IMG/VR virus record: IMGVR_UViG_3300041409_000135
Coordinates: 1-28,704 of that record
Origin: a virus
DNA: 28,704 nt
Direction: 5' to 3' (one strand)
Shown piece after piece: positions 1-23,313 of this stretch; within the stretch, counting starts at the first letter, position 1, and each line of letters starts with the position of its first letter. The position numbers and the translations under genes are program-made. The notes under the pieces were generated by a model. That model was given only the letters and a program-made list of their open reading frames with translations. It was not told the DNA's origin and searched no databases.

Positions 1-180
1 CAGGCCGTTGCTGATATCAAGGACTTTGTTGATGGCTTGAAGGGCTCGAATGGCGGCCCTACTTTGACCGACTCGTCGGATACGTCCGGTCAGTCGGCTG
101 CCGTGGTTCCTCCGGTCGTATCTCCGGTAACGCCGCCGGCCCCTGAGCAACTGACCGTCAACGGCGTGTCGACTTCGTAA
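1..180 (+). CDS. C-terminal end of an unidentified phage protein (partial)
   Basis: An open frame runs from the first base to a TAA at 178-180 and gives 59 residues; the start lies outside the window. It begins with a short helical stretch (AVADIKDFVDGLKG) and ends in a low-complexity tail rich in Ser, Thr, Pro and Val. I do not recognise the family. Its place just before the head-tail joining gene, with a one-base gap to the next ATG, suggests a head or neck gene in the same transcription unit. Confidence 0.6.
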   Translation, partial: QAVADIKDFVDGLKGSNGGPTLTDSSDTSGQSAAVVPPVVSPVTPPAPEQLTVNGVSTS

Positions 181-181
181 G

Positions 182-1173: not shown

Positions 1174-1176
1174 TTC

Positions 1177-1587: not shown

Positions 1588-1634
1588 ATCCCTTCAACAT
1601 CTGCCGCATCGTCGGCTTGCCTATGGAGCCTTAA

Positions 1635-3080: not shown

Positions 3081-3094
3081 CATAGGAACGTTGC

Positions 3095-3517: not shown

Positions 3518-3846
3518 TCTGGCAACTGGATTGGGGCGAGAGTTTCGAGACGATTGTTAATGCGGCCATGGCAGCGGGCGCACCCCTCGCGTCCCTACCG
3601 TGTGTCGCAAATAAGCCGGAACTGTTCGGCCACCTTTACTTTGAATGGGGCGCCTTCCGCGCTCTCTCCACTGATCGTCAGATCGGCATGGCTATGGGGC
3701 CCATCCCATGGCTTGCGATCGACCGTTTTTCCTCCCGGTACGGTCTGATCGGGGACGACTTCGATCGTCTCTGCGAAATCATTCAGGCGATGGACGCGGC
3801 TTTCCGCGATTATCACGAGAAAAAGAGCGCAGATGCCAAGCGTTGA
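3502..3846 (+). CDS. Frameshift extension of the tail assembly chaperone (lambda T part of gpGT)
   Basis: This -1 frame adds 114 residues to the chaperone. It opens at the slippery site with LTDVLIWQLDWGESFETIV; the first ATG is only at 3568, so an independent start would lose the first 22 residues, and no good ribosome binding site precedes it. The segment EWGAFRALSTDRQIGMAMGPIPW resembles DUF1799-type T regions of alphaproteobacterial phages. In lambda the T part recruits tube subunits while the G part coats the tape measure. The stop overlaps the tape-measure start at 3833 by 14 bases. Confidence 0.75.
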   Translation, partial: LTDVLIWQLDWGESFETIVNAAMAAGAPLASLPCVANKPELFGHLYFEWGAFRALSTDRQIGMAMGPIPWLAIDRFSSRYGLIGDDFDRLCEIIQAMDAAFRDYHEKKSADAKR

Positions 3847-6271
3847 TACGATCCGCAACATTACGATTAAGGGAAAGGCCGATGGCGTGGATGACGCTAC
3901 GGCCGCCCTTACCCGGTTGACGGATTCGATCAAGGCAGCGAACGAGAACCTGGCCAAGAGCACATCGGCAGCGAATGACAATGCTGGCGGCTTCCGCGTC
4001 ACGGGCGAAGGTGCCCTTACCGCAGCAAACCACCTCAGGCAGGCAGCCGAAGCCGCCTATGCGTTCTCCCCGGCCTTCCGCGGCGTGGTCAACGAAATGG
4101 CCGTCCCCGTGCTCAGCGCCTCCGGAACGGCGATCGCAGCTCTCGCAACGGGTATGGTCACGGCAACCAACTACGCCGGGACCGGGCTTATCGCGCTCGC
4201 GGGCGCCGCCGAGAAGGCCGCGCCAAGCCTGATGGGGGTGACTGGTGGCGTTCGTTCGGCCGGTATCGCCATGGAGGCATTCAGCCCGTCCGTTGGAGCG
4301 GCGGCGACCTCCATTCTGGGGTTTCTGTCGCCCGCGCTCCGGATGGTGGGCTGGTTCGCCCTGGCCTACGACGGCGTTAAAATGGTGGGCGAGGCGTGGC
4401 GCCTCGGCGGCGAGAAGCTTGCCGAGTATGTCGCGCTATCCGAAAAGGCCGCGGCCGCCAATGTGACGACGGATTTCTTTCAGCGGATTTCGAAGGCTGC
4501 AGAAGACGCGAAATTGCCCGTCGATGCCCTGACGACCGCGCTCCAGAAGTTAAACGATTCGACCGCGGGAAAGCTGGGCGGAAGCGCCGCTTCGAATGGT
4601 ATCAAGACCGTTGCCGATTACGGCAACTTCGCAGGCAATTCCGGCGTTGGACAACTGGCGAACGCCAACGGTTCCGAGGAAAAGCTTCGTGCGGCCGTGA
4701 GCCTGTTCGATCAGGCCGTCGCGAAGGGCGAGCGGTTGGCCGCGATCGAGGCTGTCCGGGTCACGCTCGGCGACGAGATCGCCAAGAAGGCCGCAGCCGA
4801 TAGTGGGTTTCTTGACAAAATGGTCGCGTCGGCCGATGCGATCAGCAAAGACGAACTTGTGTCGAGCGCTGACGTGCAGAACGCAGTCGATCTGCAGAAC
4901 AGGCTCGACGCCGCCGAAAAAATCCTGTCTCAGCGCTGGCACCCCGTCCAAGATCTGCTTACGCAGCTCGGTATCAAGTTCCGGGAAGCATGGGTAAGCA
5001 TCGTCGAATTGACTGCGAGCGCATTCGATAACATCGCCAAGATGGTCGACAAGCTGGGTCAACTCCCCAGCTGGTTCCAAGACAAGATGAACCAAGGCGC
5101 GACGGCGTTCATGAATTTGACCACGACTCCCGAAAGCCGCGCCGCGGCCGAGAAGAGTTTTGGGATCTCCAGCGATCCGGCCGATATTTCCGCCTTAGCA
5201 GATCAGCAGCGGCTCGACGGCATCCGCAATAGCGGCCTTATGGCCGATGCGCGCAAGCGGCTTGCGGAGGGCATGAACCGGAAGTTTGACACGTCGACGG
5301 GGCCGCCAACGACGTCAGACACGGGCGCATTTGATCGCGCGGAAGAATCGCTGCGCAAATACACCGAGACCACGCTCGCTGCGGCCAACGCGATCGATCT
5401 GACCACAGCGGCCCAGGAGCGCGCCAAGGCGATCGCCCAACTGACGGCCGCCGGCATGAAGGACGGTCTGACCCGCGAGGCGGCTGCGGCGAAAGCCGAA
5501 ATGAGCGGCCTGGCCGATCAGGCGATGCGGGCCGCTGACGCGCTGGCGCGGGCACAGGTGAATTCGAGCATTAAATTCGGACGCAACACCGCGTTTCTCT
5601 CGTCCGATGACGTTGCGATCGCAACCCAACTCAAGGGCCTTTATCCCGATGTCGCAACTGCCCTGAACAGCGTCGAGGCGGCGGGGATGCGCACCAATAC
5701 CGCGATGAGAGGACTGTCGACGGCCCTCGAAACGAATCTAACATCCGGTCTCAGCGATATCTTTACCGGCACTAAGACCGTTTCGCAGGGATTCAAGGAC
5801 ATGGGTCTGGCGGTCGTCAAGGCGCTCGATGACATGCTCATCAAGATGCTAATCATCCAGCCGTTGATGCAATCGATGCAGGGGCTCTTCGGTGGCGGCG
5901 CATTACCCAGTGTCGGAGAGACGTCCGCGGTCGCGGGTGCGTCCTCTGGAATGATGGGCGGCATCTCGTTCCCGAAATTCGCCAGCGGCACCGATAATGC
6001 GCCCGGTGGATGGTCCATCGTCGGCGAAAAGGGCCCTGAGTTGGTGAATTTGAATCCGGGCGCCAAGGTCATTCCGAATGGTGGTTCGGTGCCGTCTTCG
6101 GGTGGCGGAAGCGTCTCCTTCGGAGACATCCACATCAGCGTACCGGAGGGTACAACGCCGGATAACGCCGCAGCTATTGGCGCGGCCGTGAAGAACTCGA
6201 TGGCCCAGGTCATCGATGAGCGCCTGAGTTATCACATGCGCTCGCGCGGAATGCTGAACCGTGCCGCTTGA
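3833..6271 (+). CDS. Tail tape measure protein
   Basis: This 812-residue protein sets tail length and is expected to leave the tail during DNA injection. It is helical and Ala-rich, with hydrophobic stretches around residues 100-140 and 160-190 (ILGFLSPALRMVGWFALAY) and another near 660-690 (MLIKMLIIQPLMQSMQGLF). Near the C-terminus FASGTDNAPGGWSIVGEKGP is a very common tape-measure ending motif. Its place after the frameshifted chaperone and before M and L homologues is the lambda H position. The length would suit a tail of roughly 120 nm by the usual 1.5 Å per residue rule, which is an estimate. Confidence 0.9.
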   Translation: MPSVDTIRNITIKGKADGVDDATAALTRLTDSIKAANENLAKSTSAANDNAGGFRVTGEGALTAANHLRQAAEAAYAFSPAFRGVVNEMAVPVLSASGTAIAALATGMVTATNYAGTGLIALAGAAEKAAPSLMGVTGGVRSAGIAMEAFSPSVGAAATSILGFLSPALRMVGWFALAYDGVKMVGEAWRLGGEKLAEYVALSEKAAAANVTTDFFQRISKAAEDAKLPVDALTTALQKLNDSTAGKLGGSAASNGIKTVADYGNFAGNSGVGQLANANGSEEKLRAAVSLFDQAVAKGERLAAIEAVRVTLGDEIAKKAAADSGFLDKMVASADAISKDELVSSADVQNAVDLQNRLDAAEKILSQRWHPVQDLLTQLGIKFREAWVSIVELTASAFDNIAKMVDKLGQLPSWFQDKMNQGATAFMNLTTTPESRAAAEKSFGISSDPADISALADQQRLDGIRNSGLMADARKRLAEGMNRKFDTSTGPPTTSDTGAFDRAEESLRKYTETTLAAANAIDLTTAAQERAKAIAQLTAAGMKDGLTREAAAAKAEMSGLADQAMRAADALARAQVNSSIKFGRNTAFLSSDDVAIATQLKGLYPDVATALNSVEAAGMRTNTAMRGLSTALETNLTSGLSDIFTGTKTVSQGFKDMGLAVVKALDDMLIKMLIIQPLMQSMQGLFGGGALPSVGETSAVAGASSGMMGGISFPKFASGTDNAPGGWSIVGEKGPELVNLNPGAKVIPNGGSVPSSGGGSVSFGDIHISVPEGTTPDNAAAIGAAVKNSMAQVIDERLSYHMRSRGMLNRAA

Positions 6272-6608
6272 TACATTCGCTCCAGTTGTGAACCCGTCGC
6301 CTTCGACGACGCTGGGCGTGAAGGCCCGCGTTAACGCGGCTCAGTTTGGAGACGGATACAGCCAGCGGAGCGAGGATGGGCTGAACGCCGCGCCCCGTTC
6401 ATATCAGGCGGTGTGGAGCACGCTCCTATCTACCGACGCCGACATGATTCAGGCGTTTCTTGAGGCACACAAGGCCACGCCATTTTTGTGGACGCCTCCG
6501 CTCGAGACCATTCAAAGAAAGTGGACGTTTTCGACATCGCAGCGTGGCTATGTCGGCGGACCGACCGTTTCGCTCACGGCAAGCTTGTCTGAGGTCTTCG
6601 ACCTGTGA
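6261..6608 (+). CDS. Minor tail protein M family, tail tip
   Basis: The 115-residue product has the gpM pattern: PLDTFAPVVNPSPSTT at the N-terminus, VNAAQFGDGYSQRSEDGLN (residues 24-42), and a Trp/Pro-rich FLWTPP segment near residue 72. In lambda gpM belongs to the tail-tip complex around the end of the tape measure. The start is GTG 6261, inside the tape-measure gene, with an 11-base overlap, which implies coupled translation. Confidence 0.8.
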   Translation: MPLDTFAPVVNPSPSTTLGVKARVNAAQFGDGYSQRSEDGLNAAPRSYQAVWSTLLSTDADMIQAFLEAHKATPFLWTPPLETIQRKWTFSTSQRGYVGGPTVSLTASLSEVFDL

Positions 6609-7339
6609 CGAAGCCGAATGCGGATATTCAAAAGCCGGATATCGGGGTCGTCGTCGAATTGTACGATGTCGATTGCACGGCCATCTTCGGGCAGGTTTTG
6701 AGATACGTTCCTGCACCACTGATCGCCGATCCAACGAACCCCGTTCCAGCTCCGATTATCTGGCGAACGTTTACCTATCAACCCCGCGCCTGTGAATCAT
6801 CGGGTTGGCAATGGGATGGGCAGGGGCCGTTGCCCCGGCCAAAACTCACGATCGGGAATACGGATCAGGCCGTTTCGGCGCTTTGCATCGCCTATAGCGA
6901 TTTGCAGGGAGCCATCGTCACGCGCCATCGCGTTCCGATGAAATATCTGGACGGTCAGCCTGCGGCAGATCCGACAGTTGAATTCGATCCCGATGTGTAC
7001 GTCATCGACCAGAAGGTGACGCAAAACAAAATGGCGGTCGAGTTCGCGCTCGGGGCTTCAATTGACATCGAGGGTCGATTGATCCCGGGCCGCCAGGTCA
7101 TCCAGAGCTATTGCTCGTTTCGATACCGGGTGTGGAACGGATCAACGTTCATCTACAGCCAGGGCACCGCGGCGTGCCCTTACACCGGTTCGAGTTATTT
7201 CGACGCCAACGGAAACCCCGTGGCGACTCCTGATCTCGATAAGCCATCAAAGCGCTTGCAGTCTTGCTGTCAAAAGCGCTTCCCGACTGGGGATCTTCCG
7301 TTCGGCGGATTCCCGGGCGCAGCGAAGTTTCACGGATGA
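6605..7339 (+). CDS. Minor tail protein L family, putative iron-sulfur tail-tip protein
   Basis: The 244-residue product begins at GTG 6605, overlapping the previous stop. The C-terminal half carries the gpL signature: SYCSFRYRVWNG (Cys170), AACPYTGSSYFD (Cys191), SKRLQSCCQKRFP (Cys221, Cys222) and LPFGGFPG. Lambda gpL binds an Fe-S cluster through four cysteines. Taking the lambda ligands as Cys173, 182, 205 and 212 (from memory), Cys191 and Cys221 fit the 182 and 212 positions, but the 205 position is Pro214. Cys222 may take its place. The stop overlaps the next ATG as ATGA. Confidence 0.8.
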   Translation: MTKPNADIQKPDIGVVVELYDVDCTAIFGQVLRYVPAPLIADPTNPVPAPIIWRTFTYQPRACESSGWQWDGQGPLPRPKLTIGNTDQAVSALCIAYSDLQGAIVTRHRVPMKYLDGQPAADPTVEFDPDVYVIDQKVTQNKMAVEFALGASIDIEGRLIPGRQVIQSYCSFRYRVWNGSTFIYSQGTAACPYTGSSYFDANGNPVATPDLDKPSKRLQSCCQKRFPTGDLPFGGFPGAAKFHG

Positions 7340-8034
7340 TGTTATTTGCCCCCGAGGTCGACGCCGCCGCGCGCGATCACGCGATCTCGGAATTCCCGAA
7401 AGAGAGTTGCGGAATCGTCGTCGGCGGAGCGTATCTGCCGATCAAGAATATCGCGCCGACGCCGGAAAGGGATTTCCGGATGGCTGACGACACTTGGGCG
7501 GCCCATGTCGTCGAGGGCGTCATCCATAGCCACGGACAGCAAGAAGCGCTGGCGCCCAGCGCCAATGACATGGTGCACCAGATTTCGAGTAACGTGCCGT
7601 GGGGCATTACGCAGACGGATGGGGTTGCGGCCTCGCCGGTTCTGTGGTGGGGCGATTTCCGGCTTGATGAGCCACTGCTCGGGAGGCAATTTGTCCACGG
7701 CGTCACTGACTGCTATTCGGCCATCCGTTCGTGGCGTTGGCAAAATACCGGGATCAAACTGCCGGATTTTCCGCGCAATGACCAATGGTGGATGGCGGAC
7801 GAGGATTTGTACAACGACGGCTTTCCGCGAGCGGGCTATCGCGTCATCACGGAATATGAGGCGTCGGTCGGGGACGTTGCTCTGATCAATTTCCGGTCCA
7901 AGGTTCCCAACCACGGCGGGACATTGGTCGAGGACGGCCTTCTTTATCACCATTTGCAAAATCGCCTGTCATGTCGTGAACCCGTTGGGCGCTGGCGTCC
8001 GATGATTTCCAAGTGGCTGCGCTATGAGGGCTGA
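7336..8034 (+). CDS. Tail-tip peptidase, JAB/MPN plus NlpC/P60 domains (lambda gpK-like)
   Basis: I chose ATG 7336, which overlaps the upstream stop as ATGA and gives 232 residues; a longer in-frame start at 7264 would lie inside the L gene. Residues 1-110 are a JAB/MPN-type domain: FPKESCGIVVGG with Glu23, then HSHGQQEALAPSAND (His64, His66, Ser75, Asp78). The spacing His66-Ser75 is eight residues where JAMM proteins usually have seven. Residues 115-232 are NlpC/P60-like, with GVTDCYSAIRSW (Cys126 as nucleophile) and NHGGTLV (His193). Such proteins probably cleave peptidoglycan during tail assembly or DNA entry. Confidence 0.85.
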   Translation: MMLFAPEVDAAARDHAISEFPKESCGIVVGGAYLPIKNIAPTPERDFRMADDTWAAHVVEGVIHSHGQQEALAPSANDMVHQISSNVPWGITQTDGVAASPVLWWGDFRLDEPLLGRQFVHGVTDCYSAIRSWRWQNTGIKLPDFPRNDQWWMADEDLYNDGFPRAGYRVITEYEASVGDVALINFRSKVPNHGGTLVEDGLLYHHLQNRLSCREPVGRWRPMISKWLRYEG

Positions 8035-8037
8035 TCC

Positions 8038-8715
8038 ATGCTGCGCACGGTTGTTTTGCACGGCGCGCTTGGGGCGCAGTTTGGCGCGTCATTCGATCTC
8101 GATGTCAAAAGCCCGGTCGAGGCGATCCGCGCGCTCATCGTTCAGGTCAAGGGTTTCCGCCAGGCATTACGGGAGGGGCATTACCGCGTCCTGAGACTGA
8201 CCGAGGCGCTCGAGCTCGAGGAACTGAAGCTCCGGCTCGGCCGGGCCACGGAAATTCATATCGTTCCCGTCATCGAGGGCTCGGCGAGCGGCTGGGGCAA
8301 GATCCTGACCGGCGTTGCAATCATCGGTCTGGCGATCGCCGCTCCTTATGCGCTGGGCATGGCTGGCGGGTTGAGCGCGACGTTCGGCGGCATCTCGGCC
8401 ATTGGCTTTTCCGGCATCAGCTTCGGCACGGTGGCCGGATTAGGTGCGGCAGTGGCGCTTGGCGGTGTGGCGCAGATGCTCTCGCCAGCCCCGACGCTGG
8501 CTGGCGGAAGTGCGGCGGTGGACCGGCGGGATTCGTTCCTGTTCGGCAGCGCCGATAACGTCACGGCGCAGGGTGTTCCCGTGCCGCTGGTGTTTGGGGA
8601 GTTCGTTGTTGGCTCCGTGGTTATTTCCGCAGGCCTCAGCACCGAGGAGATTGGGACCGATCCGCTGAGCATCGGCGTGATTTTGGTGAATATCCTGACC
8701 AGAAATAAGAGCTAA
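8038..8715 (+). CDS. Tail assembly protein I family
   Basis: The 225-residue product fits lambda gpI. It has an N-terminal ubiquitin-like part (TVVLHGALGAQFGASFDLDV, then EAIRALIVQVKGFRQ), a long hydrophobic Gly/Ala-rich centre (residues about 85-150) and a C-terminal segment GVPVPLVFGEFVVGSVVISAG typical of the family. gpI is needed for tail-tip assembly and is always next to K and J. Only three bases separate it from the peptidase stop. Confidence 0.85.
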   Translation: MLRTVVLHGALGAQFGASFDLDVKSPVEAIRALIVQVKGFRQALREGHYRVLRLTEALELEELKLRLGRATEIHIVPVIEGSASGWGKILTGVAIIGLAIAAPYALGMAGGLSATFGGISAIGFSGISFGTVAGLGAAVALGGVAQMLSPAPTLAGGSAAVDRRDSFLFGSADNVTAQGVPVPLVFGEFVVGSVVISAGLSTEEIGTDPLSIGVILVNILTRNKS

Positions 8716-8719
8716 ACCT

Positions 8720-11700
8720 GTGGGTAAGGGGTCAGGTTCGTCCACTAACACGCCGACAGAAGCACCGAATACACTTCAGTCGCGGGCGACGGCGCGGGTT
8801 ATCGATCTTCTCTCCGAAGGCGAGGTTGAGGGTGTTCCGGGTAATCTTCAAAATGTTTACCTCGACGATACGCCGATTCAAAATGCGGACGGCTCATTCA
8901 ATTTCTCCAACATCATCGTCGATGCGCGGCCCGGAACACCGGTTCAAACGTCCATCCCCGGCTTCCCTGCCGTGGAATCGGTGTTCTCGGTTGGGGCGGA
9001 GGTCAAGAATACCGCGTCCGTCACCCGCGCGATATCGAATGCCGATGCGGATGCTGCTCTCGTTACGATACGCCTCGACGGTCTGCAATCAGTGGACACC
9101 AAAACCGGAAACATAAATCCGACGACGGTGCAGATCGCGATCGACGTTCAAATTAACGGAGGTGGCTGGACTGACGTTTCCCCGGGCAATTGCGTGTTCT
9201 CCGGGAAGACCAGCAGCGCCTATCAGCGCAGTTTTCGCATCGCTCGGCCCTCTGCCGGAAATTGGTCAATCCGGGTTCGGCGCATCACGGCGGATAATTC
9301 GTCATCGACACTGATCAACAAGACGTTCTGGGACAGCGTTACCGAGATAGAGGATTTCGCACTTCAATATCCGAACTCCGCGTTGATGGCCTATCGGGTC
9401 GACGCGCAGTCGTTCGGAGGCAAGGTTCCGAAGCGACTCGTCAGGCTGCGGGGCCTTAAGACCCGCATCCCGTCGAATTACAATCCGATTGCCCGGACCT
9501 ATGCCGGTGTCTGGGACGGCACCTTTCAGACGGCGTGGCACAATAACCCGGCCTGGGTTTTGTTCGAATGCATCGCCAATGATCGCTGGGGTGTCGGCGA
9601 GTACGTCCCGGATGCGTTCCGCGATAAGTGGACGCTCTATTCGATCGGTCAATATTGCGATGCCTCGGTCCCCAATGGGTTCGGGGGATTTGAGCCGCGT
9701 TACACGTTCAATTTCGCGTTTGCCACGGCCGACGATGCGCTGAAGGTTCTGATGTCGATCGCCTCCGTGTTTCGGGGGATGATCTATTGGAGCTCCGCGG
9801 GGGTAACGGCGAGCGCTGATATGGCGCTTGATCCCGTCAAGCTGGTCGTTCCAGGAAACGTCATCGGCGGCGTCATCAACTGGGGCGGTGGCAGCCTCAA
9901 GGCCCGGCACACTGTAGCGATTATCACATGGTTCGATCCGACTGACTTCTGCCGGCCTGCGTATGAGGTTGTAGAGGGGTCTCCGTCCGATATTTCGCGT
10001 TTCGGCTACCGCACTATGGAAGTGGTCGCTATCGGCTGTACGAGCCGCGGGCAGGCCCACCGGATGGGCAAATGGGCCATTGAGACCGAAGCCTCGGAAG
10101 CCGAGACGTGCACATGGCAGGCTTCGTGGGACCACTCTGACGTTTATCCCGGCGAGGTCGTTGAAATCCAGGACCCGGCCTATGCCGGCATTCAGTTTGG
10201 CGGCCGTGTAGCTGGGCTGGTCACCACGGCGGGAGTAACCGGACTTACCCTCGACCGACCGATCACTTTGGTTGCGGGAAAGACCTACCAGATCAGCGTT
10301 GTGCTATCGGACGGCTCCGTAGCCGTCCGCAACGTCACAACGGGGGCATCGACCACATCGACGCTCTCGCTCGACGTGGCCTTGGCCCCGGCGCCGATCG
10401 TTAATGCCATATGGGTCATCACGGCATCCGACCTTTCGCCCCGGCGGGTGAAGGTCATTAAGCGGGTCGAAACCGCCAAGAACGTCTACGACCTCGCCGG
10501 AATTCTGCACGATCCGACCAAGTTCGCCCGGATCGAACAGGGGCTGGTCCTGGAGCAGCCGAACTACACTGCTCTCCCGACCGGGCCGATCATCGCGCCC
10601 ACCGGTCTGGTAGCGAAAGAATGCCTCGTTATCGTCAGCTCCGCCGTTCATTCGGAGGTGGTGCTATCCTGGGTGCTCTCGACGGATCCGAGGGCGTTCA
10701 ATTACGAAATCCAGGTCAAGCCCCCGGGCCTGAACTGGCAGGCGGCGAGCCCTCGGTTTTCGTCTCAGACGTCAGTCGATCTTCTGGACCTCGCGGCCGG
10801 GAATTGGGGATTTCGGGTTCGCTCTCTTGATGCATTCTCGCGACCATCGCCGTGGGTATCGATCGAGACTTTCACGCTGTTTGGAACGAGCCTCCCGCCG
10901 GACGATGTGCAGAACATCCGCGGCGCGGCCTACGTCGATAGCAATACCTCGATTGCATGGGACGAAATCAGCGACGTTCGCGCGATTCGTTACGCGGTGC
11001 GAAACGGCGGCACATGGGCGTCGGCACTGGATTTGGGCAGTGTCGCCCATCCGCCCTTCGCCTCGCATGGTAATGGCACGTTTCTGGTCAAGGCCTACAC
11101 TGGCCCGGATACCGCAAGAATTTACAGCGTCAACGCTGCCTCGATCGAGATTGCCGGCGCATCCCTTGTCACCAACGTTATCGCGACCCGCGATGAGGCG
11201 GCTAACGGCTGGCTCGGTGTTTATACGGGGACAGTTGCGAAATCCGGCACGCTGATCCGGACGGGCGGCTCCGGCGATTTCCTGTCTACCGCCGACGTTC
11301 TGAATACGCCGGATATCCTGAACGCGGGCGGGCAGGGCAACGGCACCTACGAGATAAGTTCGTCCCGCTATATCGACGCCGGGCGCGTTGTGCCTTGCCG
11401 GGTTACGTGCACATGGAAAGGCACCGGGCAGACCGTCACTGACAGCATGCTCACCAATCCGGATATTCTCAACAATCCGGATTTCCTCGCGGCTGGTTCA
11501 ACGGATAGCGTTCAGGTCTACCCGGAAATCTCCGTCGCGCAGAACGTCGCCCTTGGCGATGTCTTCAACATGGACCCGACTTCCAATCCGGCGAACGATG
11601 TCTTCGTCCCGACAGATGTGTTCAGCCCGGGTATCTCGTTCGGTCCATGGGTCAGGTATGAGCCCGGTCTGTATGTCGGAAGGTTCTTCCGGGCGAGACT

Positions 11701-13559: not shown

Positions 13560-15815
13560 ATGAAAAAACGCCTTTTCGGCGCGCTTTGTGCTGGCTTGTT
13601 GATGCTTTCGTCCGTCAAGGCCGTGGAGCAAGCCAGCATCGTCATGCCAACTGCCGGGCCGCACACCATGGCGGACCTGACGGGCACTTATTTCAATCCA
13701 GCATTTCGCGCATTGGCAAGTTGTTCGTGGGGACCGTCCGCGCCGGCGAATGGGCCCGGTGCCGTGCCGCTGCCTTATCAGTGCTGGGCTAATACGACGA
13801 CAAACCCCGTTGTTTTCAGCCGTTATGATGGCGCATCGTGGGTTTCTTATGGTTCGCTCAATACGTCCACCCATGCGTGGGTTCCGTTTCTGACCGGTGA
13901 CACAGTCGTCGGTCGCGCGACGACGGACACCCTCACCAACAAGACGTTTGACACGGCCGGCACAGGAAATTCGTTCTCCATTAACGGACTGGGCGCTGCG
14001 GCAAATACAGGCACGGGATCGGTCGTCCGCGCTACGTCGCCAACACTGGTCACGCCGGCGTTGGGGGCCGCGACCGCGACCAGCCTCAACGGCAATTTCT
14101 TCACAGCCGGAACCTACACGCTCACCGGCGCCGCGGGCAAAACCTTTACTTTCAACAATTCGCTAACGGTAGCTGGAGTCGATGCGACGACGCTGACGTT
14201 CCAGGGGACGGATACCTACGTCGGTCGCGCCACGACTGACACGCTGACGAACAAGACGCTGACATCTCCCGTCTTGACATCTCCCGCCCTTGGTACGCCG
14301 GCGTCTGGTGTCGCGACCAACCTAACGGGGACAGCTTCGGGTCTGACTGCTGGCAACGTGACCACCAACGCCAATTTAACCGGAGATGTTACTAGCGTCG
14401 GCAATGCGACCACACTGACCAACGCGCCCGTTATTGCAAAGGTTCTGACCGGATACGTCAGTGGCGCGGGCACGGTAAGTGCTACGGATTCGATTCTAGG
14501 TGCTATTCAGAAAATCAACGGCAATGACGCTCTAAAGACGCCGCTGACCCGCAACATCTCGACCGGCTGCGGCCTGACCGGCGGCGGCGATCTCTCTGCC
14601 GATCGCACCCTGAAACTCAGTCTCACGGTCAATGCGCAGACCGGAACGAGCTATACGGTGGTTGACGGCGATTGCGGAAAACTGATCAGCCTCAGCAACG
14701 CATCGGCGGTAGCCGTCTCTCTGCCGCAGGCCAACGGATCAACTTTCGTTTCTGGCTGGAGTGTAGATTTCCAAAACAGGGGCGCGGGCACCGTCACGGT
14801 CACGCCCGTCACGTCGACCATCAACGGCGGATCCTCTCTTGTTCTGACGCAAAATCAGGGCATGCACTGCCAGTCCGATGGTACGAATTACACTTGCATG
14901 CTCGGCGTCGGTGCGGGCGGCGGTTCTGGCACCGTCACCAACATTGCAACGACCTATCCTGTTTCTGGTGGCCCAATTACGGCGACCGGAACCCTGACCT
15001 ATGCCGGGCCGATCAACTGCGGCCGGCTGGCATTCAGTTCAACAACCGCGCTGACATTTACGCCATTCATGGGGGATCTGATCCGCATCAATGGGGCAGT
15101 GTTTCAGATCCCGAGCGCCGGGATCGCGGGCGGCGCCAATACATCGGTGTTCGTGAATGGCACGGGCGCCTCTAACCTTGCTGCCAGTACGGTCTATTAC
15201 GTCTATGCCTTTTCCAACTCTGGAACAGTCACTTTCGATTTTCGGACCGATGGCAATGGGCACTTGCCGGACAATACAGCCGGCAACATCGGAACGGAGG
15301 TTCGTGTCTCATCCGGAACGACCCGGGATAGCACCCGAACCCTGATTGGCCTCATCAAGACGAGTGCAGCAAGTCAATTCGTCGATAGCGCAACGCAGCG
15401 TTACACGCGCTCTTGGTATAATGAAAAACCATTCTCCGCTGCCATGACGCCCAGCGGCACATTCACTGGCGCGGCCTCGGCGGAAATCAATAGCCCGAAC
15501 AACAGGCTTGAGTTTGTCGCGTGGAACGACGACCTGGTGAACTTTTCGGTTGGCGGTCAAGTTTATAACGGCGCGACCGGGCAAAGCAGCTATGTGCAGG
15601 TTTCGTTTAATGGAAGTACGGCTGAAACCGGCGGCGGCGGCGGTGTCTCCGCTTCCCTGAACGCGGACCTTCCGATCGGAATATCCGGCTATAAGACGGG
15701 GCTGACCGAAGGCTACAACTACGCAGCCATATTCGGCTTTGTGTCAACAAATACGGGGACGCTGTATAATGGCGGCGCCGGGTTGAAATTCTCACTGAGG
15801 CTTTCCAGGCAATGA
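13560..15815 (+). CDS. Large fibre-like protein with a Sec-type signal peptide and repeats
   Basis: The 751-residue product starts MKKRLFGALCAGLLMLSSVKA, again a signal peptide with an AxA-like cut site (VKA). The next 90 residues resemble those of the preceding fibre protein (MPTAGPHTMADL, RYDGASWVSYGSLNTSTHAWVP). Two copies of VGRATTDTLTNKT (about residues 117 and 221) introduce SPTLVTPALG / SPALGTPASG segments common in phage fibres. GCGLTGGGDLSADRTLKLSL (near 337) is another frequent fibre module. The last 200 residues are a Gly/Ser/Asn-rich beta domain. The Shine-Dalgarno site is weak, so translation may depend on the upstream gene. Confidence 0.75.
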   Translation: MKKRLFGALCAGLLMLSSVKAVEQASIVMPTAGPHTMADLTGTYFNPAFRALASCSWGPSAPANGPGAVPLPYQCWANTTTNPVVFSRYDGASWVSYGSLNTSTHAWVPFLTGDTVVGRATTDTLTNKTFDTAGTGNSFSINGLGAAANTGTGSVVRATSPTLVTPALGAATATSLNGNFFTAGTYTLTGAAGKTFTFNNSLTVAGVDATTLTFQGTDTYVGRATTDTLTNKTLTSPVLTSPALGTPASGVATNLTGTASGLTAGNVTTNANLTGDVTSVGNATTLTNAPVIAKVLTGYVSGAGTVSATDSILGAIQKINGNDALKTPLTRNISTGCGLTGGGDLSADRTLKLSLTVNAQTGTSYTVVDGDCGKLISLSNASAVAVSLPQANGSTFVSGWSVDFQNRGAGTVTVTPVTSTINGGSSLVLTQNQGMHCQSDGTNYTCMLGVGAGGGSGTVTNIATTYPVSGGPITATGTLTYAGPINCGRLAFSSTTALTFTPFMGDLIRINGAVFQIPSAGIAGGANTSVFVNGTGASNLAASTVYYVYAFSNSGTVTFDFRTDGNGHLPDNTAGNIGTEVRVSSGTTRDSTRTLIGLIKTSAASQFVDSATQRYTRSWYNEKPFSAAMTPSGTFTGAASAEINSPNNRLEFVAWNDDLVNFSVGGQVYNGATGQSSYVQVSFNGSTAETGGGGGVSASLNADLPIGISGYKTGLTEGYNYAAIFGFVSTNTGTLYNGGAGLKFSLRLSRQ
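13908..13946 (+). repeat. 39-base imperfect repeat in the fibre gene, copy 1
   Basis: This block encodes VGRATTDTLTNKT and matches 14220-14258 at 34 of 39 bases. Both copies encode identical peptides, and at least three of the differences are in third codon positions, so the copies have been kept at protein level. Confidence 0.8.
14220..14258 (+). repeat. 39-base imperfect repeat in the fibre gene, copy 2
   Basis: Second copy of the VGRATTDTLTNKT block, 312 bases (104 codons) after the first and in the same frame. The repeat could support domain duplication or loss in the fibre. Confidence 0.8.
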
Positions 15816-17047
15816 ACACCGTCCTAGATCAGAGGGCCGCCAAGACCCGTATTGGTTACGTTGGAGATTCGATTGTGGCGGGGAATAACCTCGCCAGCGC
15901 CTCTCTCATCTCCACACTTCCGCGCGAAATCGCGTGGGCGCGGGCGATGTATCCGCATTTCGAATGTGACGTGTGGTATGACGCTGGCGATACACGTTCA
16001 TTCAAGGGCATGAATGCGGCCTACAGCGGTGAGACCGTGGCGCAAACCCGCGCAAGATTGCCGTCGCCAGGTTTGTACGCTCCGCAGATCGTCATCGTCT
16101 CGGCAGGTATCAACAGCGGCACCACAAATGTTACCGCCGCGAGCATCGAGACCGACTTGCAGGCGATTTGCCAAGCCTATCTGCGGGCGGGCAGCAGGGT
16201 CATTCTCGCCAACATCCGCCCGGTGAGCGCGGCCATTATTCCGGACGGATCGCCGCAACTCCAGGTCCGCAGCGACGTTAACGCATGGATCGCAAGCTAC
16301 GCCACCACAACGCCGGACGTGGTATTATGGGACGTGGCAGCGGCCTATGACGACGGCACGGGGCGCCCGAAGGCGGGCTACATGGCGGATGGCCTGCATC
16401 CATCCCCGCTCGGTTCTCAGTACGGCGCACTGTCGCTCCTGATGATCCTCAAATGTCTGGTAAAACCGATCGCGCGTCGCATGGTCGATGACGGATTCAA
16501 CCAGTTTCCCAACGGCAGGATGAACGGCACTTCGGGATCGGTTGGCGCAGGCGTCTCCGGCTTAATTGCCAGCAATTTCGTTGCGCAAATGGTTTCATCG
16601 GGCCCGACCACAACCGTTTCCGCAGGACTACTCAATAATGCCGACACGGGCGGATTAATCCAAGTATTCGATTTCACCACCAACGGCGGCGCGGCATCTT
16701 CTGAAATCTTCGGCTTTTACGGGGCGAGCTTTGCCCCTGTTGCCGGTCAATGGGTAAAGGCGCGGGTGCGTCTCTCGCTCGTTGCGTGGTCCGGCTGGCG
16801 CAGTATCTATTTCAACGCGGGATATGGAGATTGCTTCAGCAGCAATTCGGCGCAGTCAGATCAACTTGCCGTCGGCGGCGATTTCGATCTTGAAACTATG
16901 CCGTTCCAGCCTGCCTCATCGGCAATTCGGCCCTATATCTGGATTTATAATGATCCCAGAGTGGCGGGGTCGAACGTGAGAGTGCAGATAAAAGAACTGG
17001 AGTTCATCCAGGTGGATGACCCGAGGTATCTGCACAACGCCGCCTGA
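15812..17047 (+). CDS. SGNH/GDSL hydrolase, tail-associated esterase
   Basis: The 411-residue product has all four SGNH blocks: GDS (Ser20) in YVGDSIVAG, Gly73 in AYSGETV, Asn101 in SAGINSG, and DGLHPS (Asp193, His196). The catalytic domain ends near residue 215; the remaining 195 residues form a beta-rich part with no signal peptide. SGNH enzymes in phage tails usually remove acetyl or similar esters from surface polysaccharides. The ATG overlaps the stop of the fibre gene (ATGA), which ties it to the adsorption apparatus. The substrate cannot be read from the sequence. Confidence 0.8.
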   Translation: MNTVLDQRAAKTRIGYVGDSIVAGNNLASASLISTLPREIAWARAMYPHFECDVWYDAGDTRSFKGMNAAYSGETVAQTRARLPSPGLYAPQIVIVSAGINSGTTNVTAASIETDLQAICQAYLRAGSRVILANIRPVSAAIIPDGSPQLQVRSDVNAWIASYATTTPDVVLWDVAAAYDDGTGRPKAGYMADGLHPSPLGSQYGALSLLMILKCLVKPIARRMVDDGFNQFPNGRMNGTSGSVGAGVSGLIASNFVAQMVSSGPTTTVSAGLLNNADTGGLIQVFDFTTNGGAASSEIFGFYGASFAPVAGQWVKARVRLSLVAWSGWRSIYFNAGYGDCFSSNSAQSDQLAVGGDFDLETMPFQPASSAIRPYIWIYNDPRVAGSNVRVQIKELEFIQVDDPRYLHNAA

Positions 17048-17527: not shown

Positions 17528-18385
17528 ATGGTGGACGCCAGTTTTGCGGCTGCTTTGACGCGCCTATGGCCGCACGGGGATGAGAAAATACCCGGATTGC
17601 GGACCGGGATCATCGATACGGCCCCAGCCGTCTTCGCGAAATACGGCATCAATACCCCGCTTTTGGTCGCCCATGTCATGGCGCAGATCAGCCATGAATG
17701 CGGGGCGGGGCACGATGTTGTTGAAAACCTGAGCTATACGGCCAATCGAATGACTCAGGTTTGGCCCGCTCGCTTCCCCTCAGCGGCAAGCGCCGATCCT
17801 TACGCCGGCAATCCAAGGGCTCTCGCGAACAAGGTCTATAACGGCCGCATGGGAAATGCCATCGGGACCGACGATGGCTGGAATTTTCGGGGTAGGGGGG
17901 CGTCACAGACGACGGGCCGCGAAGGCTACGTCCGGCTCGCCCTGAAGACCGGGCTGGATGTCGTCAAGAATCCCGACCTCGTAAACGATCCCCGATATTT
18001 CATGGAATGCGGTGTCGCCGATTTCATCAACTGCGGCTGTCTTCCTTACGCAAAGAACGACGACGTTCTCGGCGTCACCAAGCGTCTGAACGGCGGAACG
18101 GTAGGGCTGAACGAACGCAAGATATGGCTTGCAAAATGGAAAGGCGCGATCGACAGCGTTCCTGTCTCGAGTAAGCCGCCGATTGATCTTCCCGACATTC
18201 ACCCGTCTGAGCCAAAGCCCGCCACCAAGCCGTCGATCACCGCGGGCAACACCAAGCCGGCCCCGACCGATCTTCACGAAAAAGACAACGCGCCGAACCT
18301 TGGCCCGCAATCTCCCGCACCGAGCTTCGCGACCGCGTTCGCCAGTCTATTCGCGCTCATCCTCTCGCTGTTCAAGCGCAAATGA
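17528..18385 (+). CDS. Endolysin, GH19 chitinase/lysozyme-like, with C-terminal membrane segment
   Basis: I place the start at ATG 17528, with GGAG six bases upstream, giving 285 residues; the open frame back to 17324 has no support and runs against the minus-strand genes. Residues 5-210 look like GH19-type phage endolysins: HVMAQISHECG (Glu57 as likely catalytic acid), NLSYTANRMTQVWPARFP, NKVYNGRMGN, and GWNFRGRGASQTTGREGY. A Pro/Lys-rich linker (about 212-265) leads to SFATAFASLFALILSLFKRK, a hydrophobic helix with a basic end. The enzyme cuts peptidoglycan glycan chains at host lysis. No N-terminal signal is seen. Confidence 0.85.
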   Translation: MVDASFAAALTRLWPHGDEKIPGLRTGIIDTAPAVFAKYGINTPLLVAHVMAQISHECGAGHDVVENLSYTANRMTQVWPARFPSAASADPYAGNPRALANKVYNGRMGNAIGTDDGWNFRGRGASQTTGREGYVRLALKTGLDVVKNPDLVNDPRYFMECGVADFINCGCLPYAKNDDVLGVTKRLNGGTVGLNERKIWLAKWKGAIDSVPVSSKPPIDLPDIHPSEPKPATKPSITAGNTKPAPTDLHEKDNAPNLGPQSPAPSFATAFASLFALILSLFKRK

Positions 18386-18900
18386 ATTGGCTGAGGCTCT
18401 TCCGCCTAACGAAGTGGGAGTATTACGCCGACTTCTTCATCACCCCGCCGATCACGCTGGCGCTGCTGGTGTTCTCTATTCGGCAAGGCGTGTCGCCCGG
18501 TTGGTTCGGTGAGCTGGCGTTCGGACTTCTCGGCTGGTCGCTGTACGAATACGTGTTGCACCGATGGGTTCTGCATCGCGCTTGGTTCTTTCGCGACATG
18601 CACGATCTGCACCACTCGAGGCAGAAAGACTACATCGCGGTCCATCCTGCTTTGACGATCGCGATATACGCCGCGCTCTGGGCCATGTTCGGTTTTGGAA
18701 GCAGTGCGGTAATGATCGGGTTTTCGCTTGGCTACATCGCCTATTCGATCACGCACACAGCGTTTCACTACACGCACATACCGAAGGGCCACTGGCTCTA
18801 CGGAATGAAGATGCGCCACGCCGCGCATCATCGGACGGACGTGTGTTTCGGCGTGACGACCTCGCTCTGGGACAAGATTTTCAACACAGAAGGAAAATGA
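18382..18900 (+). CDS. Fatty acid hydroxylase / sterol desaturase superfamily membrane enzyme
   Basis: The 172-residue product has the diiron histidine boxes of this superfamily: HRWVLH (His60, His65), HDLHH (His74, 77, 78), HTAFHYTH (His125, 129, 132) and HAAHH (His146, 149, 150). Hydrophobic segments lie around residues 18-33, 42-58, 89-104 and 106-123. Family members use oxygen to hydroxylate or desaturate lipids or carotenoids. The ATG overlaps the endolysin stop (ATGA), and the next small membrane gene follows at once, so it is inside the lysis operon rather than in flanking DNA. The lipid substrate is unknown. Confidence 0.8.
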   Translation: MNWLRLFRLTKWEYYADFFITPPITLALLVFSIRQGVSPGWFGELAFGLLGWSLYEYVLHRWVLHRAWFFRDMHDLHHSRQKDYIAVHPALTIAIYAALWAMFGFGSSAVMIGFSLGYIAYSITHTAFHYTHIPKGHWLYGMKMRHAAHHRTDVCFGVTTSLWDKIFNTEGK

Positions 18901-18902
18901 CC

Positions 18903-19097
18903 ATGTTTACCGTGTTCGCAGAAGTCATCCTCGCCGGCGTCATCTTCACTGCCGGCGGCGCGCTGATCTGGTTTTTCAAACCAAAAATTCAGGAACTGGT
19001 GATCGGCGCGAACAAGCTTTCAGCCAAGCTTCACGCGCAGGCTGATGCGCTCAGCGCCAAAGCGACCGCGGCCGTCGACGCCGTCAAGAAGGTCTGA
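18903..19097 (+). CDS. Small membrane protein with C-terminal amphipathic helix
   Basis: AGGA at 18891-18894 fits best with ATG 18903 (64 residues); ATG 18897, which overlaps the upstream stop, is also possible. One membrane helix (about residues 5-27, ending GGALIWFFKP) is followed by an Ala/Lys-rich helix with repeated LSAKLHAQADALSAKATAA. With an N-terminal anchor and a long helix it could be a very short i-spanin-like protein or a holin partner, but no motif decides between these. Confidence 0.6.
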   Translation: MFTVFAEVILAGVIFTAGGALIWFFKPKIQELVIGANKLSAKLHAQADALSAKATAAVDAVKKV

Positions 19098-19101
19098 GGC
19101 G

Positions 19102-19350
19102 GTGCTGCAGAAGATCTGGGCCGCCTGCGGCCGGTCCGCAACGATGGCGGTCCAGTACGTCGGACTCGCCTTCGGTCTCGTCGTTGCGAACCTGGATAAT
19201 ATCGCTGCGGTCGTCGGTGATCCGGCCTTCGTGACGTGGGCCCAATCCTGGCTAGGGAGTAACCCCAAGGCGTGGGGCGTGGTGATGATGGCGTTCTCGA
19301 GCGTCACCATGGCGGCGCGGCTGCGGACGCTCATCAAGCCGAAGGCATAA
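19102..19350 (+). CDS. Small hydrophobic protein of the lysis cassette, possible holin or antiholin
   Basis: The likely start is GTG 19102, four bases after the previous stop and preceded by GAGG, giving 82 residues; ATG 19144 would give 68. Two hydrophobic stretches are visible (about residues 14-40, YVGLAFGLVVANLDNIAAVVG, and 60-75, GVVMMAFSSVTMAA), with a basic C-terminus RLRTLIKPKA. Size, topology and place just before a holin suggest a second holin or a regulator of it. No family is recognised. Confidence 0.6.
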   Translation: MLQKIWAACGRSATMAVQYVGLAFGLVVANLDNIAAVVGDPAFVTWAQSWLGSNPKAWGVVMMAFSSVTMAARLRTLIKPKA

Positions 19351-19354
19351 TCCG

Positions 19355-19738
19355 ATGTGGATGACAATTCTCTCCTTTCTCGGCGGTCCCGTCATCAAGG
19401 GCCTGATCGATGCCTATCAGGCAAAGCTGAAGTCCGAAACGACTGACGCAAAAACAGCAGCCACATTGGCTGCGTCTGAAATTGCGGCTCAGGTCAGCGA
19501 GTCCAATGCCATCCTCCAGTATCGGACGGCCGAGATCGGCCATTGGTACGAGCCTGACAAGATCATGGGATATCTCGTAGCGCTGTTGCTCGGGAAAATC
19601 ATCGTCTGGGATATCTGCCTAGGCTGGGGAACAACGACCCTGCACGACGGCTGGATGACGACGACAGCCAATCTGGTCGTTGCGTTTTACTTCGGTAAAC
19701 GTGGATTTGAAAACGTCGCGCGCATCATCAAACGCTAA
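19355..19738 (+). CDS. Holin, GTA-type 3TM family
   Basis: The 127-residue product resembles the holins of gene transfer agents and alphaproteobacterial phages (GTA_holin_3TM): FLGGPVIKGLIDAYQAKLK at the start, a helical Ala/Glu-rich linker, EIGHWYEPDKIMGYLVALLLGKIIVWD in the middle and AFYFGKRGFENVARII at the end. Holins open the inner membrane so the endolysin can reach the wall. It lies four bases after the preceding small membrane gene and 13 bases before the lipoprotein gene. Confidence 0.75.
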   Translation: MWMTILSFLGGPVIKGLIDAYQAKLKSETTDAKTAATLAASEIAAQVSESNAILQYRTAEIGHWYEPDKIMGYLVALLLGKIIVWDICLGWGTTTLHDGWMTTTANLVVAFYFGKRGFENVARIIKR

Positions 19739-19751
19739 ACCGGAGGCAGAA

Positions 19752-20051
19752 ATGAAGAAGATCAGCTTCACAATTGCGCTTGCTGTCATGGTGGCAGGCT
19801 GCGCCCATCGACCCGGGATGGTCGCCCCCGCGCCCGTCAAGCGTCATCACGCGGTCCATAAGGTTGCGGCGGTGCCAGTTGCCCATCCCGTTGCCGCTCC
19901 CGTGGCGCCTCCTGTCGCCGAACCAGCGCCGCCGCCTGTGGCTCAGGTCGCGCCGCCTCCGGTTGTTCCTGCTCCTGTTGCTGCACCAGCCACGCCGAAG
20001 CACGGCGCGTTGCGCTGGTTCTTGCGCGATCGATCCACCAGCGGACGGTAA
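19752..20051 (+). CDS. Proline-rich lipoprotein, candidate outer-membrane spanin (Rz1-like)
   Basis: GGAGG six bases before ATG 19752 gives a clear start and 99 residues. MKKISFTIALAVMVAGC is a lipoprotein signal peptide with the lipobox VAGC, so Cys17 should be lipidated. The mature part is dominated by Pro, Ala and Val (PVAPPVAEPAPPPVAQ), with a basic end RWFLRDR. Rz1 proteins are small Pro-rich outer-membrane lipoproteins of the lysis cassette, which matches type and place. Here it is longer than usual and is not nested in an i-spanin gene. Confidence 0.65.
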   Translation: MKKISFTIALAVMVAGCAHRPGMVAPAPVKRHHAVHKVAAVPVAHPVAAPVAPPVAEPAPPPVAQVAPPPVVPAPVAAPATPKHGALRWFLRDRSTSGR

Positions 20052-20348
20052 ATGATGCAAGATCACGAAGTCCGACAAGTCGTCAATGACGTCCTCTCCG
20101 AACAGCAGCGCCTCCATAGTGCGGATGTCGATACGGTCGTCCTGAAGGCAATAGCAACGATTCTGACTTCGTTTGGAATCGAAGAAGAGGACCGCAAAGA
20201 GCTTCGCGCGGATTTCCAGCATCTTCGAAAATGGCGACGTGGCGTTGAGCAAGTCGAGCGCGTCGGCTGGGGATCTGTCATCACCATCATCGTTACCGGG
20301 ACTCTCGGCGCGCTATGGGTCGGCTTCAAGACACTGGTTGGCAAATAG
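20052..20348 (+). CDS. Small phage protein with C-terminal membrane helix
   Basis: The 98-residue product starts at ATG 20052 directly after the lipoprotein stop (a second ATG follows). The N-terminal two thirds are charged and helical (HEVRQVVNDVLSEQQRLH, then EEEDRKELRADFQHLRKWRRG). Residues 74-95 form a hydrophobic helix (VITIIVTGTLGALWVGF). Proteins of this shape are common beside holins in alphaproteobacterial prophages, but I cannot name a function. The orientation, with a cytoplasmic N-terminus, argues against an i-spanin. Confidence 0.65.
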   Translation: MMQDHEVRQVVNDVLSEQQRLHSADVDTVVLKAIATILTSFGIEEEDRKELRADFQHLRKWRRGVEQVERVGWGSVITIIVTGTLGALWVGFKTLVGK

Positions 20349-21213: not shown

Positions 21214-22514
21214 TGACCGCGCACAATCTGACGGACGCCCAGTTGGACGCCGCCGCAGCCGCCCTAGCGCAATGTGGCGGCAATGCCACACACGCCGCAG
21301 CGTCTCTGAATCTAAATCGCAGCACGTTCAACCATCACATTCGGTGCCACAAACTGCGCTGTTCGAGGTCGGCGACGACTCCGGCGCCGGTTAAACTGGA
21401 CGTAGTTGAGCGCCACCGCTTCACTGCCGAGATATCCCAGCTTCGCGAGAATAACAAAGCGCTGACAAAGCGCTTGGCGGCGGCGGAAGACCACCGCGCC
21501 TCGATCCTCGGCCTCGAGATCGCCCCAGCGGAGCCGGTGGCCAGGCCCCGTCCGGCCAAAATTTCCAGAAATTCCAGCAAACAGGCCGTCGTCCTGCACC
21601 TTTCCGACCTCCATGTTGGCGAAGTCGTCAACCGCGAGGAGGTCATGGGCGTCAACGAATACAATCTCCCGGTCGCAGAGAAGCGCATAGGTAGGCTTTT
21701 CAACGCGGCGTCCATCCTGACGACTTCGGCGTGGCCCGCGTCTGACGCGGCTCCCAGCAAGGTCTGCGTGCTATTGGGTGGGGATCTGATCTCCGGCCAT
21801 GGATTGCACCCCGAGCACGCCGAGACCGACGCCGGGACGGCCTACCAGCAGACCAAATGGGCGGCTGAGTATATCGCCGCCGGCGTCCTGAGGCTGCATC
21901 TGGACCTTATGGAGCGGTTCGGTAAGCCGGTCCCGATCGAACTCATCAGCGTGGTCGGCAACCACGGCCGGGACACGTTCGGCAAGCCGCGGACCAAGCT
22001 GGTTTCGATCCAGAGCTATGACACGCTGGTTTCGGATTTCGTCGAAGCGGCGCTGAAGCAATTCCCCTCCATCAAGCATTACCGGCCCCGGGGCTTCGAC
22101 GCCTATTTCGATGCCGCCGGCTGGCCGCTGTTGCTGACCCACGGCGACCGGATGGGATCCGGCGGGGGGACCGGATTCATCGGGCCCGCCGCGACCATCA
22201 TCAAGGGCCATCGGAAAATCTTGGATACCGAGCACCGCCAGCGCCGGCCGGTCTACAAGGTGTTCTCTGGGCACTTCCATACGACGTGCGTTACGCCCTT
22301 CGGTTTCGGCAACGGCTCTGGAATCGGCTACGGCGAGTTCGCCAAGAGTCTCCGCGCCGATCCTGAGCCGGCTCAGCAGAACTTCGTGGTCTTCCATGAG
22401 CGCATCGGCGTGATCCGCTGGCATCCTATCGCCATGGGAGCGTCGTCCGAGGGATCGATCTACCAACCTACCGCCGGCCTGATCCTGCCTAGCATGTATG
22501 AGGGCCGCACATGA
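21213..22514 (+). CDS. HTH-calcineurin-type metallophosphoesterase fusion
   Basis: The 433-residue product begins with a FIS-like helix-turn-helix (about residues 12-45; CGGNATHAAASLNLNRSTFNHH), then a short coiled coil (65-95). The catalytic domain carries the full metallophosphoesterase set: DLHVGE (Asp132, His134), GGDLISGHG (Asp191), GNHGRD (Asn250, His251), THGD (His310) and SGHFHT (His354, His356). Such enzymes use two metals to cleave phosphodiester or phosphomonoester bonds; the DNA-binding head suggests a nucleic acid substrate or DNA targeting. It is coupled to the genes on both sides. Similar proteins occur in tailed phages without an established role. Confidence 0.8.
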   Translation: MTAHNLTDAQLDAAAAALAQCGGNATHAAASLNLNRSTFNHHIRCHKLRCSRSATTPAPVKLDVVERHRFTAEISQLRENNKALTKRLAAAEDHRASILGLEIAPAEPVARPRPAKISRNSSKQAVVLHLSDLHVGEVVNREEVMGVNEYNLPVAEKRIGRLFNAASILTTSAWPASDAAPSKVCVLLGGDLISGHGLHPEHAETDAGTAYQQTKWAAEYIAAGVLRLHLDLMERFGKPVPIELISVVGNHGRDTFGKPRTKLVSIQSYDTLVSDFVEAALKQFPSIKHYRPRGFDAYFDAAGWPLLLTHGDRMGSGGGTGFIGPAATIIKGHRKILDTEHRQRRPVYKVFSGHFHTTCVTPFGFGNGSGIGYGEFAKSLRADPEPAQQNFVVFHERIGVIRWHPIAMGASSEGSIYQPTAGLILPSMYEGRT

Positions 22515-22876
22515 CCCTTCCGCTGACACCTGAAATGCTGGCAGCGGCTTACGAATACATGAGGACAACGCCGCCGTTTTGCCGATTGAAGCTACCACCC
22601 GCCGCCGTCGTCAAGTTCACCGTGGGGAAATTCCGGCAGGACTTCGCCGAGTATCGATGGGACGGCAAGCACCACACCATTACGATGTCAGTGAATGCTA
22701 TCGGGCATACCACAACCCTGATGCGGTGCATGGCACACGAGGCAATCCATCTTTATTTGGAAGAGAACGGGCTTGAGAGCCGCGCGGGCGGCAAGGACAC
22801 GCACAACGCGGCGTTCCGGAAGTTGGCCGCCCAGGTGTGTCGGCATCATGGATTCGACGCGAAGGCGTTCTACTGA
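22511..22876 (+). CDS. SprT-like zinc metallopeptidase
   Basis: This 121-residue protein has HEAIH (His76, Glu77, His80) and a downstream THNAAFRKLAAQVCRHHG with His98 as the likely third zinc ligand, the SprT/zincin arrangement. The first 60 residues contain a strand pattern (YRWDGKHHTITMSV) typical of the fold. SprT relatives cut DNA-bound proteins or act as transcription-associated factors; here the substrate is unknown. It starts at ATG 22511, inside the phosphoesterase stop, and its own TGA overlaps the next ATG, so the three genes should be made together. Confidence 0.75.
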   Translation: MTLPLTPEMLAAAYEYMRTTPPFCRLKLPPAAVVKFTVGKFRQDFAEYRWDGKHHTITMSVNAIGHTTTLMRCMAHEAIHLYLEENGLESRAGGKDTHNAAFRKLAAQVCRHHGFDAKAFY

Positions 22877-23313
22877 TGCCTTATCTGATCCGCGAGGTCG
22901 ACGGTCGCGACCCCGACGTTGCCGCCGTGCTGCACCGCCTCAATGGCCTCGCGCCCGATATTTTCCCGGCACTGGAATCGCGTCATCTCGAGGACGGCTT
23001 CTGGTGGCTGGCGTATCTCGAAAGTGATCCCGTCGCCTTCGCCGGCATGGTGCCGTTCGAACCCTTCCCGAACATTGGATATTTTAAGCGCTGCTACGTT
23101 CTGCCCGACCATCACGGCCACGGGTTGCAATTACGGTTCATGGTCACGCGAGAGATCAAGGCGAAAAAGATAGGCTGGACGCACCTCGTATCGGAGTGCG
23201 CGGCGCGCAATCTGCATTCGTCCGCCAATTTCCGGCGCGCCGGATTTGAGCAAGCCGAGCCGGAGCAGCGTTGGGGCCAGGCAAATTCCGTCTACTGGGT
23301 GAAGGCGATTTAG
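22876..23313 (+). CDS. GNAT family N-acetyltransferase
   Basis: I prefer ATG 22876, which overlaps the SprT stop (TGATG), giving 145 residues; an open frame from 22837 would lie inside that gene. The middle strand PNIGYFKRCYVLPDHHGHGLQLRFM contains the acetyl-CoA-binding motif A in the form HHGHGL, and LVSECAARNLHSSANFRRAGFE is the usual GNAT motif B. It would acetylate an amine on a small molecule, peptide or protein; the acceptor is unknown. The gene ends 17 bases before a strong terminator. Confidence 0.8.
   Translation: MPYLIREVDGRDPDVAAVLHRLNGLAPDIFPALESRHLEDGFWWLAYLESDPVAFAGMVPFEPFPNIGYFKRCYVLPDHHGHGLQLRFMVTREIKAKKIGWTHLVSECAARNLHSSANFRRAGFEQAEPEQRWGQANSVYWVKAI

Follow-up and report, generated by a model that had tools for sequence, protein, structure and literature searches.

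A predicted membrane hydroxylase of the PF04116 superfamily recurs in phage lysis modules

The lysis operon and its hydroxylase gene

The DNA analysed here, hereafter the window, is a 28.7 kb IMG/VR virus contig (record IMGVR_UViG_3300041409_000135), whose J-type tail protein has proteins of Rhizobium, Halomonas and Stenotrophomonas phages among its best matches. Its lysis region contains the following features:

17528..18385, plus strand: GH19-type endolysin (phrog_181, E 2.5e-52); homologues L017-L064 align from 17528
18382..18900, plus strand: predicted membrane di-metal hydroxylase (PF04116), ATG start, 172 aa; from Pfam, an AF2 model and Foldseek
18559..18576, plus strand: His box 1, HRWVLH (HX4H), residues 60-65; H60, R61 and H65 invariant
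18601..18615, plus strand: His box 2, HDLHH (HX2HH), residues 74-78; H74, H77 and H78 invariant
18754..18777, plus strand: His box 3, HTAFHYTH (HX3H), residues 125-132; H125 and H129 invariant
18817..18831, plus strand: His box 4, HAAHH (HX2HH), residues 146-150; H146, H149 and H150 invariant
18897..19097, plus strand: small membrane protein, 66 aa; hydrophobic stretch 6-24
19102..19350, plus strand: small membrane protein, 82 aa, GTG start; hydrophobic stretch 20-38
19355..19738, plus strand: holin-type membrane protein, 127 aa (phrog_12264)
19752..20051, plus strand: proline-rich lipoprotein, possibly an outer-membrane spanin; signal and lipobox recognised by eye (MKKISFTIALAVMVAGC)
20052..20348, plus strand: 98-aa protein with a C-terminal transmembrane segment (phrog_6420, E 1.7e-18)

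The endolysin frame is readable from 17324, but its homologues begin at about 17528, which is probably the true start. Its stop codon (18383-18385) overlaps the start of the hydroxylase gene in GCAAATGAATTGG, with four bases common to both, confirming the ATGA coupling noted in the original prediction; the hydroxylase stop likewise overlaps the start of the 66-aa frame by four bases (ATGA). The hydroxylase gene thus belongs to an operon-like run of overlapping frames with an endolysin upstream and small membrane proteins and a holin-type protein downstream, as had been proposed, a layout seen in many phages. A consensus scan of 17.0-20.7 kb, a weak test for this host group, found no sigma-70-like promoter site; terminator-like sequences occur twice within or close to the hydroxylase frame, as consensus matches only.

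Several neighbours recur elsewhere. Stretches similar to the 66-aa frame adjoin related endolysins in L017, L020 and L042, all lacking the hydroxylase. In L109 a homologue of the 82-aa frame (E 4e-6) separates the hydroxylase from the holin, and the frame is also present in L004, L006, L008 and L040. The 127-aa holin-type protein is homologous to an L163 protein of the holin family phrog_3427, and phrog_6420 is also found downstream of the hydroxylase in L071, with a homologous frame in L164. No family matched the proline-rich lipoprotein.

Directly upstream of the lysis genes, 15812-17047 codes for a GDSL/SGNH-type lipase-esterase (PF13472, E 2e-19; phrog_6102, lipase), which places another gene for a lipid- or ester-directed enzyme close to the hydroxylase; its product is probably tail-associated. 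Further along, downstream of a phosphoesterase/exonuclease gene, 22511-23313 contains an SprT-like frame (PF10263, E 1e-5, just under the cut-off) and a GNAT acetyltransferase frame (PF00583, E 7e-7).

Sequence and predicted structure of the hydroxylase

The only Pfam match in the 172-aa protein is PF04116 (FA_hydroxylase; 65.2 bits against a cut-off of 31, E 1.1e-17, residues 46-169), which supports the enzyme class originally suggested from its four complete His boxes. No substitution occurs at any of the ten box histidines among eight aligned phage and bacterial sequences (the other seven 28-57% identical to that of the window), and hence the boxes are not a chance motif; they are invariant in alignments A2 and A3. 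Among PDB sequences, phmmer recovered a sole match, yeast Scs7p (E 0.003). An AF2 model, built from a shallow alignment of seven viral sequences (pLDDT 82, pTM 0.76), has the multi-helix transmembrane fold of the superfamily, with Scs7p as its best Foldseek match (4zr0/4zr1, TM 0.73-0.75, E 5e-5) and no other match below E 0.9; a viral structure library gave no significant match to the model. PHROGs holds no family matching the protein and NCBIfam no name for it. The sequence thus shows the product of 18382-18900 to be a conserved member of the PF04116 superfamily, and we predict a small inner-membrane, presumably di-iron, monooxygenase. A CrtZ-like carotenoid hydroxylase was considered and seems less likely, since the C-terminal FGVT..WD..F motif is Scs7/FA2H-like.

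Relatives in viruses and cells

Searches used the hydroxylase alone as query, ignoring its neighbours. Scans of IMG/VR with progressively wider alignments yielded about 45 further viral homologues on contigs that are often fragments, some of which (e.g. L076) may contain host DNA. A tblastn search of INPHARED returned no match for the hydroxylase of the window or for that of L098. A weak match in 'Acinetobacter phage MD-2021a' (L068, CAKLQH020000004.1) was discarded because the stretch holds bacterial chromosomal genes, which flank the match; the record is possibly mislabelled.

The best cellular relatives reach 38% identity (genome_contigs). Hydroxylase relatives occur in 57 of 397 genomes of the order Hyphomicrobiales, the top three matches among which (L112-L114) lie in lysis regions of prophages; two seem to be the prophages already found as L104 and L102. 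The gene context of the cellular homologues inspected offered neither recognisable phage genes nor a hint of the substrate. The original prediction would have been refuted by homologues confined to host loci away from phage genes, and this was not the outcome. The open literature searched contained no report of such a hydroxylase gene in lysis cassettes.

Recurrence beside unrelated endolysins

A check suggested at the outset, whether the gene recurs next to endolysin and holin genes, proved strongly positive: about one in two of the viral homologues is part of a lysis module and shares its orientation, and the endolysins there are of unrelated types (GH19/phrog_181, M15, GH25, PG-binding/CHAP and a lysozyme-like family). 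Gene calls in these relatives come from a simple GC-position caller supplemented by hand, and for genes other than those of lysis many functions of neighbours were assigned by eye. The arrangements are:

Window: phrog_181 endolysin; hydroxylase start overlaps endolysin stop
L092: M15 endolysin; hydroxylase overlap TGATG
L071: M15 endolysin, same strand; about 1 kb of small frames before the hydroxylase
L095: GH25 endolysin; hydroxylase start at a position equivalent to the overlaps
L080: phrog_1259/21357 lysin; overlap TGATG, then a membrane protein, then a holin-like protein
L107, L160: PG-binding/CHAP endolysin close to the hydroxylase, same strand
L166: PG-binding/CHAP endolysin, assigned via similarity to L107
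L108, L169: PG-binding endolysin; overlap in L169 from frame coordinates
L109: lysin homologous to that of L108 (E 1e-26); then a homologue of the window holin (E 2e-57)
L164, L167: lysins L109-like by eye, with no family match
L162, L163, L173: GH19/phrog_181 endolysin close to the hydroxylase
Group formed by L098-L106 with L104/L114: an RlpA-like gene, then the hydroxylase, a lysin of phrog_181 type and a holin-type protein; the lysins of L098 and L104 are likewise GH19/phrog_181
L021: hydroxylase one gene upstream of an endolysin at 74% identity
L070: hydroxylase near a holin-like frame; lysin not identified there

The window, L080, L109, L164 and L167 all run from endolysin through hydroxylase and small membrane protein to holin, as does L163, which has extra genes. 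When the viral hydroxylases are clustered at 50% identity, 9 of 19 clusters include a lysis-module member, the labels being assigned by hand. A chance test of this association, taking 9 of 24 architectures (an earlier hand count) at an assumed 10% base rate, gives P about 3e-4, with counts that are non-independent.

Two further genes in these modules deserve mention. The gene adjoining the hydroxylase in the L098 group (L098:5643-5981 and homologues) codes for an RlpA-like DPBB lytic transglycosylase (PF03330, E 5e-21). In the L163 cassette, the gene after the hydroxylase (4351-4812; best match phrog_6098, of unknown function; no Pfam match) bears a CIEHDRAY motif resembling prokaryotic phospholipase A2, and could be another lipid-active lysis gene.

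In an IQ-TREE phylogeny of 62 rows, in which long branches leave some deep joins unsure, the hydroxylase of the window falls in a nine-row phage-only clade (support 100/99). The L098 group (100/99) and a group of L109, L078, L111 and L080 (98/91) are likewise phage-only, and the majority of cellular hydroxylases form one separate clade (98/97). The hand-assigned lysis label changes nine times on this tree, with at least four changes forced by well-supported branches. Within the L098 group, NG86 dN/dS values of 0.10-0.37 point to purifying selection on the enzyme. Taken at the level of sequence and gene order, phages of different lineages have repeatedly put such hydroxylase genes into their lysis modules.

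An accessory gene with several locations

The remaining half or so occur in replication, packaging and other regions instead of lysis modules, so the hydroxylase is not bound to lysis. A second recurrent location is seen in L003 (about 6504-9264), L075 (about 2887-7378) and L165 (about 1-3977), where its two flanking genes are of the same kinds each time, namely probable replication genes of the DUF2800 and DUF2815 types, recognised by eye. It lies amid replication or other early genes in L097, L078, L082, L084 and L110, near terminase-type packaging genes in L074, L085 and L111, and near a ParA-like gene and other small genes in L002 and L096; L153 is the only homologue beside capsid-type genes. 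From this spread of sites it follows that the gene is mobile between modules; of the locations found, lysis modules are the most frequent. The box histidines are kept in copies outside lysis modules too.

We also examined relatives of the cassette itself, comprising 13 holin and 49 endolysin relatives with contig L004 in both sets: in no case does a hydroxylase separate the endolysin from the holin, most of the close relatives have no hydroxylase, and L004, L022, L028, L032 and L040 carry an endolysin and holin cassette without it. Such cassettes, together with the homologues outside lysis modules, make the hydroxylase an accessory gene.

Proposed role in lysis

That genes of this kind occur in lysis operons across many quite different phages suggests oxidation of a host membrane molecule by some phages while the cell bursts. 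We posit, at roughly even odds, that the hydroxylase is accessory, acts late in lysis and hydroxylates a lipid of the host membrane to time holin action or to weaken the envelope. Translated within the late lysis operon together with the endolysin and holin, it would reside in the cytoplasmic membrane and use di-iron chemistry on an abundant host lipid; the target could be an acyl chain, or else a lipid typical of rhizobia, for instance an ornithine lipid or hopanoid. By changing how lipids pack, hydroxylation would let the holin act at the right time together with the small membrane proteins of lysis; its effect might alternatively be a weakening of the envelope during lysis. Candidate lipids do exist in the host group, given that ornithine lipids are hydroxylated in Agrobacterium (PMC3972451) and that all three prophage hosts tested encode a squalene-hopene cyclase, although neither identifies the substrate.

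A different view, which we regard as rather unlikely, is that of a lysogenic-conversion moron that alters the membrane lipids of the lysogen for stress tolerance or superinfection exclusion, the lysis region being a mere insertion hot spot. The absence of the gene from relatives with the same cassette, the several genome positions of its homologues and its presence in the Hyphomicrobiales prophages (L112-L114) are all in keeping with this. Morons, however, usually carry their own promoter and terminator; the hydroxylase gene overlaps both neighbours in a region where the scan found no promoter-like site, and this disfavours a simple moron, as do its constant orientation and mostly constant slot beside unrelated endolysins. 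For the original suggestion of a moron travelling with the lysis genes, accessory status is supported and a simple moron is disfavoured.

We give a similarly low probability to a general virocell enzyme, acting on lipids or isoprenoids for late metabolism or progeny release rather than on the holin, with selection for late expression only. Hydroxylases and desaturases of this superfamily act on many substrates, and the copies in L003, L075 and L165 suggest use at other times; yet the recurrent endolysin/holin-type slot is more specific than late expression alone would demand, and structural operons, which would do equally well, are represented by L153 only. Finally, a non-enzymatic structural helper, either an antiholin or a chaperone for the small membrane proteins beside which the hydroxylase usually lies in lysis modules, is very improbable, as the invariance of the box histidines at such divergence, and their retention in copies elsewhere, points to catalysis.

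Returning to an accessory lipid-hydroxylating enzyme of late lysis, we more tentatively entertain a broader generalization, which falls short of probable: that membrane-lipid oxygenases constitute a recurrent class of phage lysis proteins, produced along with endolysin and holin and altering host membranes, such as those with hopanoids or ornithine lipids, to set or enable lysis. If true, a lipid-oxidising membrane enzyme in the endolysin-holin interval of many unrelated phages would add an oxygen-dependent membrane remodelling step to phage lysis, and the effect of membrane composition on holin action would be directly testable in Hyphomicrobiales prophages. In any event, a gene that phage annotation may miss now has a name and a family.

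Comparison with known systems

Known lysis cassettes comprise muralytic enzymes, holins and antiholins, and spanins, with a lipid esterase in addition in mycobacteriophages. Phage fatty-acid and lipid desaturases, which are auxiliary metabolic genes, resemble the hydroxylase as phage-encoded membrane enzymes of the lipid-oxidising di-iron class but belong to a different family, and we know of no report of them as lysis-cassette genes. The mycobacteriophage lipid enzyme, LysB, is an esterase of mycolyl-arabinogalactan unrelated to the hydroxylase in sequence and chemistry. LysB is nevertheless analogous in its working, as an enzyme directed at host lipids and encoded beside endolysin and holin; lysin B genes are described in lysis cassettes (PMC13056207).

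With Scs7p/FA2H (PF04116; PDB 4zr0, 4zr1) the window protein has in common the superfamily, the His boxes, the transmembrane di-metal fold and the FGVT..WD..F motif; it differs in being about half the size, at about 22% identity, in lacking the N-terminal cytochrome b5 domain and in its location in a phage lysis operon. Small bacterial 'sterol desaturase family' proteins, including those of Hyphomicrobiales (e.g. L065 of Rhizobium, 36%), resemble it in size, in the N-terminal YY.DF region and in the boxes, but mostly form a separate clade. OlsE belongs to the fatty acyl hydroxylase superfamily. Likened here by description rather than sequence, OlsE of rhizobia and Agrobacterium acts on a membrane lipid in a related host group, as is proposed for the window protein, but it is encoded by a chromosomal gene and hydroxylates the ornithine moiety (PMC3972451).
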